Source: an uncultured Clostridia bacterium
Lineage (GTDB): Bacteria; Bacillota; Clostridia; RUG12999
Assembly: GCA_946555455.1 (NCBI GenBank)
Contig: CAMNSU010000010.1
Location: 1-50,203 of the forward strand
Direction of reading: 5' to 3'
Length of the DNA: 50,203 bases
Part shown: positions 22,643-25,959 of the stretch, one piece after another
Position numbering within the stretch: the first letter of the stretch is position 1
How the letters are laid out: every line of letters begins with the position of its first letter
Made by a program: the position numbers and the translations under genes
Notes under the pieces: model-generated
What the model saw: only the letters and a program-made list of their open reading frames with translations
Databases searched by the model: none
What the model was told of the DNA's origin: nothing

Positions 22643-22671
22643 TTGTAAATGAAATCATTTTATGCTATAAT
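22643..22671 (+). promoter_or_regulatory. Sigma-A promoter upstream of the second AraC-type gene
   Basis: TTGTAA (22643-22648), 17 bp spacer, TATAAT (22666-22671) preceded by TG at the extended -10 position. Transcription would start near 22678 and give a leader of about 160 nt containing four hairpins. Confidence 0.65.
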
Positions 22672-22809
22672 GATTACAGAAATCTTGCTTTGCAAGATTT
22701 AGCGGCTTTGCCGCTGCGTGTGCAGTGCACACGCCTGTATCATTGAATCACAGCGTAAAAATGCCCTTGCAAGCAAGCATTTTTACTTATGCTATAATGA
22801 CTACAGAAA
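22661..22809 (+). repeat. Hairpin chain between two copies of a promoter-like 22 bp direct repeat
   Basis: The segments 22661-22682 and 22788-22809 are identical except for one T/C change, and each contains an extended -10 box (TATGCTATAAT). Between them lie three back-to-back hairpins with three-base loops: AATCTTGC/GCAAGATT (22681-22699), AGCGGC/GCCGCT (22701-22715) and GCGTGTGC/GCACACGC (22716-22734). A fourth stem, GTAAAAATGC/GCATTTTTAC, spans 22755-22786. The layout fits a small palindromic element inserted with duplication of its target, or a duplicated promoter. The second -10 copy has only a poor -35 at the right distance. Confidence 0.65.
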
Positions 22810-22837: not shown

Positions 22838-25132
22838 ATGCTAAAAAAATGGCGGCAGTTGTTGACGCAGAAAAACAGTCTGTTTCATAAATATTTGTTG
22901 GCGCTGCTGGCGCTTTTGATTGTTCCTACATTGCTGGGCGTGGCGATGTTCCAAGTTTCCATGCGCGCCATGGAAAAGGAAGTGCGGGAAAACAGCCGCA
23001 AAACGCTGGAACAGGTGCAAAAAACACTGGACAGAGATTTGGAAAATATCCGCCGTATTGCCATGGATTTGGCGGAAAGCGAAGAGTTAATCAATTTTAC
23101 CTACAATAAAGATGATGTGGAGAGCCTATATCGTTTGGCAAAGCTGACGGAAAAAACAGGGAAAAACTATAATGACCAAAATGCGTTGATTGTGGAAAGT
23201 TTCGTCTATATGAAAGAAAACGAAGTGGTGTTGTCAGGACGCGCGAAATATACGCCGCGGGAGTTTTATAACTATTTTATGAAAATGGAAGAGTGGAGTT
23301 ATGACGAATGGATTTTACATATGGACGGACAGTATTTTAACGACACGCTTCCGGCGCAGATTGTAGAATTCAAATCGGGTGAAGGGAAAAAACGTGTGAT
23401 TCCCTATATTCATTCCTATCCGATGGGTGGCAGCAGTCAAGGAAATATTGTGATTTTTTTGGATTATGATAAAATCACCGCTGCATTTGAAAGTGTTTAT
23501 GGCAGTGAACAAAGCTGTATGTATTATATCAATCAAAACGGAAACGTGGTATTCACGGTCGGCAATGAAACGCTGCGGCAGGAGGGGTTTGCGTCTCTGG
23601 AGGAGGGCAGCCATACCGGAAAAGCAGGCAGCAAAAGCGTGCTGGTATTTAAACAGAACGGAGAAAACAGAAACAGTCAATATATCAGTGTGGAAGATAG
23701 GAAAAAAATCAAAGCGCAGACAGCGCCGGTGCGTAACGTAGTTGTGATTTATTTTTTGCTCATGCTGCTGGTCGGCGTGGCGCTGGCAGCTTATGTCGCC
23801 TATCGGGGCAGCAAACCGGTGGAGGAACTGGCAAGGTCGCTGGGCGCGGGAGAGAAAGAAAACGAAAAACATTCCGGCGGTGAATTTGCCTATATTTCCA
23901 GCCGCGTGAAACAATTGGTGCAAGAGAAAAATGAAGCGGAGAATATCATGCGAAGGCAGCAGCCGGCGCTGCGGAAAAATTTGTTGGTGAAAATGATGAA
24001 CGGCAACTTAGGCGATATTGAGGATTTGGACACAGCGTGCAGGGCAGTGGGACTGGAGTTTCGATATCCGCTTTATTGCGTTGTGGCATTTGACGTGCAG
24101 TTGCCGGACGAACAATCGGATTCCGATTTGGCGTTGGTGAAATATGCGCTGCAAAATGTGGCGGAGGAAGTGTTTGCAGATATTGCAGACCCCTATATTG
24201 TCGATAATGGGTGGTCGCAGATATCCATGTTGCTGAATTTTGCGGCGGAGAACCGAACGCAGCAGACCATCTTGGAAAAATGCCGTTTCATGCAACATTT
24301 CATGCAGGAACAATTGGAGGCAGACGTTGGCGTCGGCGTTGGAGAAAGCGGCGCAGTGAAAACGATTTCGCTGAGTTTTGCGCAGGCAAAAGAAGCGCTG
24401 GACTACCGGACGCTAAGCGGCAAAGAAGGCGTGATATGTTTTAGCGATTTGGCGCAGCAAAGCCATAAATATTATTATTCCATGCAGCAGGAGAATCAGT
24501 TGCTCAGCAGCGTTATGATGGGCGACGAGGAAGGTGTGGCGCGGCTGCTGGACGAAATTATTCAGATGAACCATAATGCGTCGCTGGATATGAGTAAATG
24601 TTTGTTTTTCGATTTGATGAGTACCGCGCTGAAAGTGATGAACAGTGAAGAAATTGATATGAACGCGATTTTTCCGCAAGAGTCGCCGTTTGAAAAGTTG
24701 GTGGGCTGTTCTTCTATCGGTGAACTGCGCGACAATACCAAAGCATTGCTGGGCGAAATTTGCCGCTATATGAAAGCCAACCGAACAGGAAAAAAAGAAA
24801 TGCTGGGACAGGCGATTTTAGAATATGTGAAAAATAATTGTGAAAACAACGCCATGTCGCTGGAGATGGTGGCGAACGCCTTTTCCCTCAACTATACCTA
24901 TGTTTCCCATTTCTTCAAGGACTATATCGGAGAAAATTTTAGCAACTATGTAACGGGCGTGAAAGTGGAAAAAGCGATTGAATATTTGAAACAAACGGAT
25001 TTACCGGTCAGTGAAATTGCAGGAAAACTGGGCTATGCCAACAGCGCGGTGCTGATTCGTAATTTCAAGAAGGTAACGGGCGTCACGCCGGGACAGTTCC
25101 GTAAAATGGAAGGAAAAACGGGCAGAGAATAA
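22838..25132 (+). CDS. Membrane-anchored AraC-family sensor-regulator (YesN-like), 764 aa
   Basis: Second regulator of the locus, with the same architecture as the one at 221-2503. A membrane helix at about 19-38 (YLLALLALLIVPTLLGVAMF) and another at about 298-325 enclose an extracellular sensor region. A central degenerate GGDEF-like region follows, with QEQLEADVGVGVGESG and SLSFAQAKEALDYR. The C-terminal AraC domain is at about 661-757 (YTYVSHFFKDYIGENFSNYV and LGYANSAVLIRNFKKVTGVTP). ATG 22838 is chosen because AAGGAGGG ends 6 bases upstream. It is probably monocistronic: it follows a terminator, and the toxin-like cassette starts two bases after its stop. It may control the unit starting at 31170, the minus-strand gene, or both. 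Confidence 0.9.
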   Translation: MLKKWRQLLTQKNSLFHKYLLALLALLIVPTLLGVAMFQVSMRAMEKEVRENSRKTLEQVQKTLDRDLENIRRIAMDLAESEELINFTYNKDDVESLYRLAKLTEKTGKNYNDQNALIVESFVYMKENEVVLSGRAKYTPREFYNYFMKMEEWSYDEWILHMDGQYFNDTLPAQIVEFKSGEGKKRVIPYIHSYPMGGSSQGNIVIFLDYDKITAAFESVYGSEQSCMYYINQNGNVVFTVGNETLRQEGFASLEEGSHTGKAGSKSVLVFKQNGENRNSQYISVEDRKKIKAQTAPVRNVVVIYFLLMLLVGVALAAYVAYRGSKPVEELARSLGAGEKENEKHSGGEFAYISSRVKQLVQEKNEAENIMRRQQPALRKNLLVKMMNGNLGDIEDLDTACRAVGLEFRYPLYCVVAFDVQLPDEQSDSDLALVKYALQNVAEEVFADIADPYIVDNGWSQISMLLNFAAENRTQQTILEKCRFMQHFMQEQLEADVGVGVGESGAVKTISLSFAQAKEALDYRTLSGKEGVICFSDLAQQSHKYYYSMQQENQLLSSVMMGDEEGVARLLDEIIQMNHNASLDMSKCLFFDLMSTALKVMNSEEIDMNAIFPQESPFEKLVGCSSIGELRDNTKALLGEICRYMKANRTGKKEMLGQAILEYVKNNCENNAMSLEMVANAFSLNYTYVSHFFKDYIGENFSNYVTGVKVEKAIEYLKQTDLPVSEIAGKLGYANSAVLIRNFKKVTGVTPGQFRKMEGKTGRE

Positions 25133-25162
25133 GAGGCGGACGCGGGTTGTTTGATTTTGAGC

Positions 25163-25191
25163 TTGATTTATATACATATATATGATATAAT
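25163..25191 (+). promoter_or_regulatory. Sense promoter of the left cassette
   Basis: TTGATT (25163-25168), 17 bp spacer, TATAAT (25186-25191). It has the same boxes and spacing as the right copy, although the spacer sequence differs, so the promoter appears to have been kept under selection. Confidence 0.8.
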
Positions 25192-25260
25192 AAACTTTAG
25201 GCAGATAAAGAGTGTATCGGAAGGCGGTTTACCCATCTCCTGTAGAAAGGGGGTGGTTGT

Positions 25261-25615
25261 ATGGAGAATATCCTACCCTCTCTTGACAAGAGCACATACG
25301 CCTTTCACAAGAGAAAAATTAGGGCTAGCGGCGTTCTCGTCCTTGACTTGCGGAAAGCAAGCCTTCGTCCTCGGTCTTGCCAGTCCTAATTTTTCTTCTT
25401 GGAAAGGTCAGGAGGAGTTTTTCAGACACAAATTTTGGAAGTGACTAGGAAGACGAGAGAGCAGGGCTCGTGCCCGCGAACGAGGATGACAACGTCAATT
25501 TCAAAATTTGTGTCTGAAAAACCGTGTGTGCCTTTGTCAAGAGAGGGTAGAGTATACAATGATAATCATTGTTCTATTGCTACTTAAAGAGATATTGAAA
25601 TACATAAAAAAGTAG
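25261..25615 (+). pseudogene. Small hydrophobic toxin-like peptide gene split by an inserted element
   Basis: ATG 25261 with ribosome site GGGGGTGG four bases before it begins MENILPSLDK and then runs into the inserted element (25273-25550), where it is out of context. After the element an ATG at 25559 opens a frame encoding 18 residues, MIIIVLLLLKEILKYIKK. Its TAG stop (25613-25615) falls at the same place in the terminator stem as the stop of the intact copy. The gene is therefore probably inactive, unless the downstream ATG is translated. Confidence 0.7.
25273..25550. mobile_element. 278 bp MITE-like element with terminal inverted repeats
   Basis: Perfect 17 bp terminal inverted repeats (CTACCCTCTCTTGACAA at 25273-25289, complement at 25534-25550) extend imperfectly to about 28 bp through a GCACAYACG motif. 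Inside are two long hairpins. One pairs 25312-25323 with 25385-25396 (12 bp perfect) and carries the apical hairpin CTTGC/GCAAG. The other pairs 25417-25437 with 25502-25522 (21 bp perfect) and carries the apical hairpin GGGC/GCCC. There is no transposase frame. The element is absent from the right copy of the cassette, which defines its ends to within a few bases. No clear target duplication is visible. Confidence 0.75.
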
Positions 25616-25735: not shown

Positions 25736-25790
25736 GGGTGTAGACACGAATAGGGTGCAGGGGCGGACGCGGATTTGTTTGATTTTGAGC

Positions 25791-25819
25791 TTGATTTATA
25801 TACATAACTGTAGTATAAT
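25791..25819 (+). promoter_or_regulatory. Sense promoter of the right cassette
   Basis: TTGATT (25791-25796), 17 bp spacer, TATAAT (25814-25819). Transcription would start near 25826, giving a leader of about 60 nt before the peptide. Confidence 0.8.
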
Positions 25820-25860
25820 GAACTTTAGGCAGATAAAGAGTGTATCGGAAGGCGGTTTGT

Positions 25861-25883
25861 CCATCCCTTTAGAAAGGGGGTGG
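25861..25883 (+). promoter_or_regulatory. Hairpin masking the ribosome site of the small peptide
   Basis: CCATCCCTT (25861-25869) can pair with AGGGGGTGG (25875-25883), which is the ribosome site four bases before the ATG. The left copy preserves the same nine pairs (25233-25241 with 25248-25256) despite base changes, one of which swaps C-G for T-G. Hidden ribosome sites of this kind are known in type I toxin messages. Confidence 0.7.
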
Positions 25884-25887
25884 AGCT

Positions 25888-25959
25888 ATGAAATACATAC
25901 TAAAGATTATCGTTTTTGTCATGATAATTCTTTTAGTTTTTTCTATAAAAGCACAATAG
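25888..25959 (+). CDS. Predicted type I toxin: 23-residue hydrophobic membrane peptide
   Basis: The frame encodes MKYILKIIVFVMIILLVFSIKAQ, a single hydrophobic helix with Lys at both ends. That is the usual make-up of type I toxins, which insert in the membrane. The ribosome site GGGGGTGG lies four bases upstream and is paired in a hairpin. The TAG stop is inside the left arm of the terminator (CAATAGCCGC). A perfect-consensus antisense promoter lies downstream, so an antisense RNA would pair with the 3' end of the message. I do not recognise the peptide as a member of a named family (not TxpA, BsrG or Fst by eye). A leader peptide with no toxic role remains possible. Confidence 0.65.
   Translation: MKYILKIIVFVMIILLVFSIKAQ

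Follow-up and report, generated by a model that had tools for sequence, protein, structure and literature searches.

A short stretch of DNA upstream of an AraC-type regulator gene in an uncultured Clostridia bacterium is probably a mobile, non-autonomous element that spans about 127 bp, counted from one TATAAT to the next, and goes precisely into the −10 box of host promoters. It appears to prefer TRTGnTATAAT as its target and to be oriented with a second TRTGnTATAAT downstream. At the level of sequence, comparison of copies within and between genomes demonstrates the insertion, its exact site, its orientation, the −10 box on either side, a covarying structure, and a core shared with other elements. 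The window referred to below is the whole 50,203-nucleotide stretch of DNA that we analyzed, and all features are given on its forward strand.

Promoter, direct repeat, and folded structure in the window

The regulator gene (22838 to 25132) encodes a protein with Pfam matches to HTH_18 and HTH_AraC and weak matches to dCache and GGDEF_2. A promoter scan placed the host −35 box, TTGTAA, at 22643 to 22648, 17 bp 5′ of the left −10; the promoter has 10 of 12 matches, with TG preceding the −10, and the orthologous promoter of a congener (G002) has TTGTCA at the −35 position. The left, host extended −10, TATGCTATAAT, was located by the scan and a motif count at 22661 to 22671. An identical right extended −10, TATGCTATAAT, at 22788 to 22798, is the end of the element where it joins host DNA; it reads TGTGGTATAAT in the ortholog of a second congener (G001) and GTGGTATAAT in the genus consensus. 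A preliminary description of this DNA had proposed two 22-bp segments with one mismatch, each holding an extended −10. Repeat comparison agrees: positions 22661 to 22682 (TATGCTATAATGATTACAGAAA) and 22788 to 22809 (TATGCTATAATGACTACAGAAA) are identical at 21 of 22 bases (22 of 23 when extended by one base) at a spacing of 127, and both contain TGnTATAAT. TRTGNTATAAT occurs three times in the window, versus 0.15 expected. A repeat of this length is unusual, being shorter in the sister species, where the right copy in G001, TGTGGTATAATGACTACAG, differs from the left copy 5′ of TATAAT. Around the core, the right end of the element reads TTTTTACTTRTGG before TATAAT and the left end GATTACAG after it.

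Folding placed three hairpins one after another: hairpin 1 at 22680 to 22700 (AAATCTTGC-TTT-GCAAGATTT, 9 bp), hairpin 2 at 22701 to 22715 (AGCGGC-TTT-GCCGCT, 6 bp), and hairpin 3 at 22716 to 22734 (GCGTGTGC-AGT-GCACACGC, 8 bp). Stems of 8, 6, and 8 bp with three-base loops had been described earlier; the positions and the second and third lengths were correct, and the first stem is 9 bp rather than 8 bp. The fourth stem of 10 bp in that description was recovered by folding at 22755 to 22786, and an alignment of 36 copies defined this hairpin 4 as GTAAAAATGC-CC-TTG-CAAG-CAA-GCATTTTTAC, a 10-bp stem with a bulged CC and, further in, a TTG/CAA step. Overlooked until now was an outer stem, P1, supported by folding and covariation, whose 5′ arm (AATGATTACAG, 22669 to 22679) begins within the left −10 and whose 3′ arm (CTGTATCATT, 22735 to 22744) pairs its ATT with the AAT of the left TATAAT. 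P1 thus closes hairpins 1 to 3 into a four-way junction, or cloverleaf, that takes in part of the promoter; hairpin 4 stands outside it. The segment ATTGAATCAC (22742 to 22751) may form an alternative, imperfect pairing with the right extended −10, as suggested by the fold of a sister copy (L110). The window element folded as DNA with a z score of −6.8 (0 of 200 shuffles), and three perfect stems of at least 6 bp with three-base loops within 60 bases were seen at one place in the window and in none of 100 shuffles.

Among 36 deduplicated copies, the architecture is retained while the sequences differ. In P1, the 8 bases after TATAAT pair with their own 3′ arm at a mean of −6.0 kcal/mol, versus −3.0 kcal/mol with swapped arms; own-arm pairing was matched in 0 of 20,000 permutations, which ignore relatedness, and the result holds after collapse to 24 distinct left arms. 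Copies L083, L108, L119, and L090 have complementary P1 arms despite unlike sequences. The 8 bases after a −10 box lie at or before the transcription start. RNA made from the left promoter would therefore lack most of them, and because the covariation lies upstream of the expected start, selection probably acts on folded DNA rather than on a leader RNA, assuming no transcript from further upstream. Interior mismatches weakly favor the bottom strand (24 A·C versus 11 G·T), and a larger strand bias in fold energy comes mostly from outside the cloverleaf, so that the strand asymmetry of the folds is suggestive, not conclusive. The covariance model that we built (R1) contains the hairpin-4 pairs only, with the cloverleaf outside its test. 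A small ORF in the core was considered and rejected as noncoding, as reading frames differ between copies.

A second small repeat family lies 3′ of the regulator gene, where positions 25160 to 25270 and 25785 to 25895 form a near-identical pair, GCTTGATTTATATACATA..TATAAT..ACTTTAGGCAGATAAAGAGTGTATCGGAAGGCGG; each member has a short ORF and a TATAAT that resembles a −10 box.

Dispersed copies and empty orthologous sites

The genome that contains the window (G000) carries four full copies and one half copy, all at unrelated promoters: besides the window, full copies lie on contigs C103, C108, and C45, and a left half on C9. Five copies are present in G001 and three in G002. The copies have unrelated flanks, their likeness extending from the left TATAAT through the right one. 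The half copy (L023 6099 to 6231; C9:20098) has a perfect TTGACA −35, with the right half replaced, and precedes a gene that reads like one for a Veg-family protein.

Orthologous promoters were found by searching the starts of four downstream genes across the genus, with gene functions assigned by Pfam. At gdh, G000 is empty (TTTTTGC-GATATAATAATGACAG-ATAAATT) and G001 and G002 are filled, with GATATAATAATGACAGA on both sides; here a host-specific stretch of 16 to 17 bp is common to the two sides of the element. The promoter of an EF-G homolog is filled in G000 and empty in G001 and G002, and that of a second araC gene is filled in G002 and empty in G000 and G001. Upstream of a gene for meso-DAP dehydrogenase (an identity as gap was ruled out by its Pfam match), G000 is filled, G002 is empty, and G001 has the right end of another element. 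The comparison with relatives lacking the element that had been suggested earlier thus yielded clean empty sites at four orthologous promoters. Together with recurrence at unrelated promoters, these precise empty sites bear out the original idea of a small palindromic insertion, and the window element is supported as a dispersed insertion.

It had also been pointed out that the same hairpins, if conserved at the regulator gene in distant relatives, would indicate a dedicated leader. The G001 ortholog does carry the same element. In G002, the upstream terminator, the promoter (TTGTCA .. TATGGTATAAT), and the ribosome site are kept, and a quite different element of about 320 bp, X, occupies exactly the same −10, again ending in TATGGTATAAT, which points to insertion. 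A cis-regulatory leader or riboswitch of the araC-type regulator, or an RNA regulon common to the downstream genes, would account for a stable structure in the 5′ region that is mostly co-oriented with the gene. Such a role is nevertheless very improbable: the downstream genes are unrelated and include a tRNA gene, orthologous promoters are empty, the regulator gene has a different element in G002, the covarying bases precede the expected start of the RNA, and a search of 11 element loci at Rfam gathering thresholds gave no match. A dedicated leader RNA is ruled out by the empty sites, the unrelated genes, and the other element in G002.

The closest RNA family in appearance is Gut-1 (RF01706; PMC2864571), which resembles the element in being a chain of small hairpins, in occurring in gut bacteria, and in being multicopy in relatives G248, G086, and G172. 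In contrast to the element, the Gut-1 copies that we inspected lack TATAAT at either end and frequently stand after a terminator. The Gut-1 model scored 14.9 bits (E = 2) on the window against a gathering score of 50 bits, which rules out membership. Gut-1 itself gave 36 matches in G248 and 16 in G086 (L234 to L242), many matches being below the gathering score and several lying directly after a terminator; in these genomes it behaves as a multicopy repeat rather than as a single noncoding RNA gene.

Beyond the genus, a core pattern fixed on hairpin 4 found 72 stretches in the species-level genome set (about 70 contigs of gut or rumen Clostridia). By title, all come from metagenome-assembled genomes (MAGs) of Clostridia, Clostridiales, or Oscillospiraceae except one labeled “uncultured bacterium,” and where a title gives a source, it is mostly gut or feces; the named relatives are almost all MAGs. 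The exact core is present in 18 of 391 genomes of the class, and carrier genomes have one to nine copies each. The hairpin-4 core is near-invariant across families. Since the search patterns were fixed on that hairpin, independent evidence of conservation comes from a DNA query without the fixed pattern, which matched the right end in other families at 89 to 96% across about 47 bases. The plasmid and phage records searched gave no match to the core. One IMG/VR viral contig (L147) and one Clostridia MAG contig (L086) have a copy in front of the same gene; the viral contig is probably host DNA or a prophage edge. Four copies (L113, L082, L101, and L130, in G086 and G344) lie inside a longer repeat of about 400 bp, the right end of which lacks TATAAT; no transposase was recognized in this larger repeat around the G086 copies.

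The −10 box as target and the origin of the repeat

We compared deduplicated left sites with a background of 77 other TATAAT sites that precede a ribosome site on the same contigs. TGnTATAAT was present at 56 of 67 left sites and 16 of 77 background sites, and TRTGnTATAAT at 47 of 67 and 10 of 77; left sites were selected by TATAAT and right sites by a TG-requiring pattern, so that those parts of the motif are not themselves evidence. The −35 box behaved differently at the two ends, with at least four of six matches to TTGACA at 46 of 67 left ends, 24 of 77 background sites, and 1 of 23 right ends. The element does not bring a −35 of its own, and the native one remains beside the left −10. At 57 of 67 loci the following ORF runs in the same direction, and two copies, judged by eye, precede a tRNA gene. 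TRTGGTATAAT occurs 52 times in G000 and 51 times in G001, versus 3 and 2 times for a reversed control. A second promoter for the regulator gene, as first proposed, is plausible at the right end, which keeps an extended −10.

The preliminary description attributed the repeat to duplication of the target. With TATAAT as the fixed anchor, the base before it is the same at the left and right ends in 24 of 29 copies of the window's kind (A-type; P = 0.005 when shuffled within genus), and so is the base after it, also in 24 of 29 (P = 0.07 within genus); agreement at +3 and beyond is at chance level in these 29 copies. In a subgroup of copies, B, agreement at −1 is mostly absent by eye. At the junction, the copies read have TATAAT or a close variant of it. 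The attribution is therefore partly supported, by the flanking base at −1 and marginally by that at +1, and is not supported as a plain 22-bp duplication, TATAAT being a constant element end in all copies. Host bases may be duplicated over about 7 to 8 bp, with the core belonging both to the target and to the element end.

These observations bear on whether the element is an ordinary miniature inverted-repeat transposable element (MITE) of a DDE transposase, with imperfect terminal inverted repeats, an ~8-bp duplication nTATAATn, a lost parent transposon, and palindromes that are a by-product. The agreement at −1 is better explained by a short target duplication than by a fixed end of the element, that at +1 points the same way, and the gdh promoter with its 16 to 17 host-specific base pairs on both sides and a weak resemblance between the ends, judged by eye (both have AGTAAn..CTTGCnnnGCAAG), are consistent with it. 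We count this explanation as a serious rival, though it is unlikely, as an 8-bp duplication tied to one hexamer is unusually strict, unlike elements have only the TATAAT core in common, P1 covaries in every lineage though plain terminal repeats do not need it, and no parent with these ends was found.

In a wider sense the element does resemble MITEs, as both dispersed near-identical copies and empty orthologous sites were found. Several MITE families carry σ70-like promoters, and a Correia copy lies directly 3′ of the mtrCDE promoter (PMC10969869). Like those, the element is short, noncoding, palindromic, dispersed, and located beside promoters. It differs in targeting one promoter part, TRTGnTATAAT, in a fixed orientation with a −10 on both sides, in having ends that are not clear inverted repeats, and in that unlike units are arrayed with one core.

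Other elements at the same core and possible mechanisms

An unrelated element with TATAAT ends of its own, D, lies upstream of one of the A copies in G001. Matches to D number 36, 39, and 18 in the three genomes of the genus, some of which are partial or read the same palindrome on the opposite strand; D often precedes a gene, and both of its ends can pair with internal ATTATA segments. The unlike elements D, E, and X have the TATAAT core in common with A, and tandem arrays built of D, E, X, and A units have a single core per junction. On the right, two D copies (L178 and L185) are flanked by the left target in reverse complement (AAAATAAGATATAAT .. ATTATATCTTATTTT) and look like insertions midway in a host palindrome. 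Subgroup B copies (L126, L133, L145, and L100) are often followed by chains of small Gut-1-like hairpins. A recombinase gene near a D copy (G000, C39) is a doubtful candidate for the enzyme: it reads like XerD and lies among unrelated housekeeping genes.

The pairing in D bears on a relationship to IS200/IS605 elements, which make no target duplication, have hairpin ends, and insert 3′ of a fixed tetra- or pentanucleotide read by a guide at the hairpin foot (PMC7290912). An ends-only relative of this Y1 HUH group would be excised as single-stranded DNA and inserted 3′ of TATAAT read by an internal guide; the element would end in its target motif, and the repeat would therefore not be a duplication. 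The element shares with IS200/IS605 ends and palindrome-associated transposable elements (PMC7290912) hairpins beside a fixed insertion motif and guide-like pairing, which in D takes the form of pairs (TATAAT..ATTATA and ATTATACCA..TGGTATAAT) around bulged hairpins, with matching changes in both partners, e.g., TATACT/AGTATA in L173. We consider such an origin quite unlikely, because the repeat partly follows host bases, as the left/right correlation at −1 indicates, and several carriers have no Y1 transposase: a Y1_Tnp search of 17 carrier genomes gave no match in 7 (G000, G001, G002, G054, G059, G278, and G344), including all three of the genus.

Integron cassettes and their attC sites (PMC2727003) are alike in poor sequence but strong structural conservation, a folded single strand with extrahelical bases, tandem units joined by one core, and differing occupants at one site. 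The element differs from them in having no coding sequence and in its core, TRTGnTATAAT; no GTT/AAC R box is found at the junction, where TATAAT or a close variant stands. A search of 12 genomes for the integron integrase (TIGR02249) gave no match over the cutoff, with general tyrosine recombinases present. As Y1 is absent from the three genomes of the genus and no integron integrase exceeded the cutoff, we claim membership in neither family. On present comparisons, the element seems to work like a MITE or an integron-like cassette, yet it fails or leaves open defining features of each.

For the element as a promoter-targeted insertion, we envisage that one DNA strand folds into the cloverleaf and the invariant bulged hairpin, that a trans-acting enzyme would recognize the folded strand, and that cutting or exchange between element and target would take place at the TATAAT core, as in a folded-single-strand cassette system. 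The −10 is perhaps a favored target because the DNA there is melted when a promoter complex is open. Once the element is in place, the native −35/−10 would fire into it, and the right-end extended −10, about 40 bp 5′ of the start codon, would keep the gene expressed, so that the insertion is tolerated. Most simply, then, the host function would be tolerance, with the far-side −10 keeping the gene on.

A more far-reaching version, which we put forward tentatively and with more doubt than belief, is that, in gut Clostridia, unrelated noncoding hairpin cassettes are swapped and stacked at housekeeping −10 boxes via TRTGnTATAAT by some recombinase acting on folded single strands. This would be an undescribed system in which the core is itself a promoter and each insertion repairs the promoter that it interrupts. 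No gene-bearing relative or autonomous parent with the same ends occurs among all copies found, close same-strand TRTGGTATAAT pairs in G000 and G001 enclose about 113 to 270 bp and nothing gene-sized, and no excision or circles of the element were seen. Our literature search, with the terms used, found no description of short elements targeted to the −10. We accordingly regard the element first as a new variant of mobile noncoding repeat, a new recombination system being the lesser chance.

Related and unlike elements at many housekeeping promoters of gut Clostridia point to undescribed promoter-targeted mobile DNA. Such elements may pass for regulatory RNA leaders. The arrays, and the way in which one element has taken another's place at a single promoter, suggest a recombination system that could be traced by its enzyme and by a circular junction. 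If our reading is true, a mobile element that targets the −10 and restores a −10 on its other side would be a clear example of an insertion that the host tolerates, and it would directly rewire promoters in gut bacteria that are abundant.
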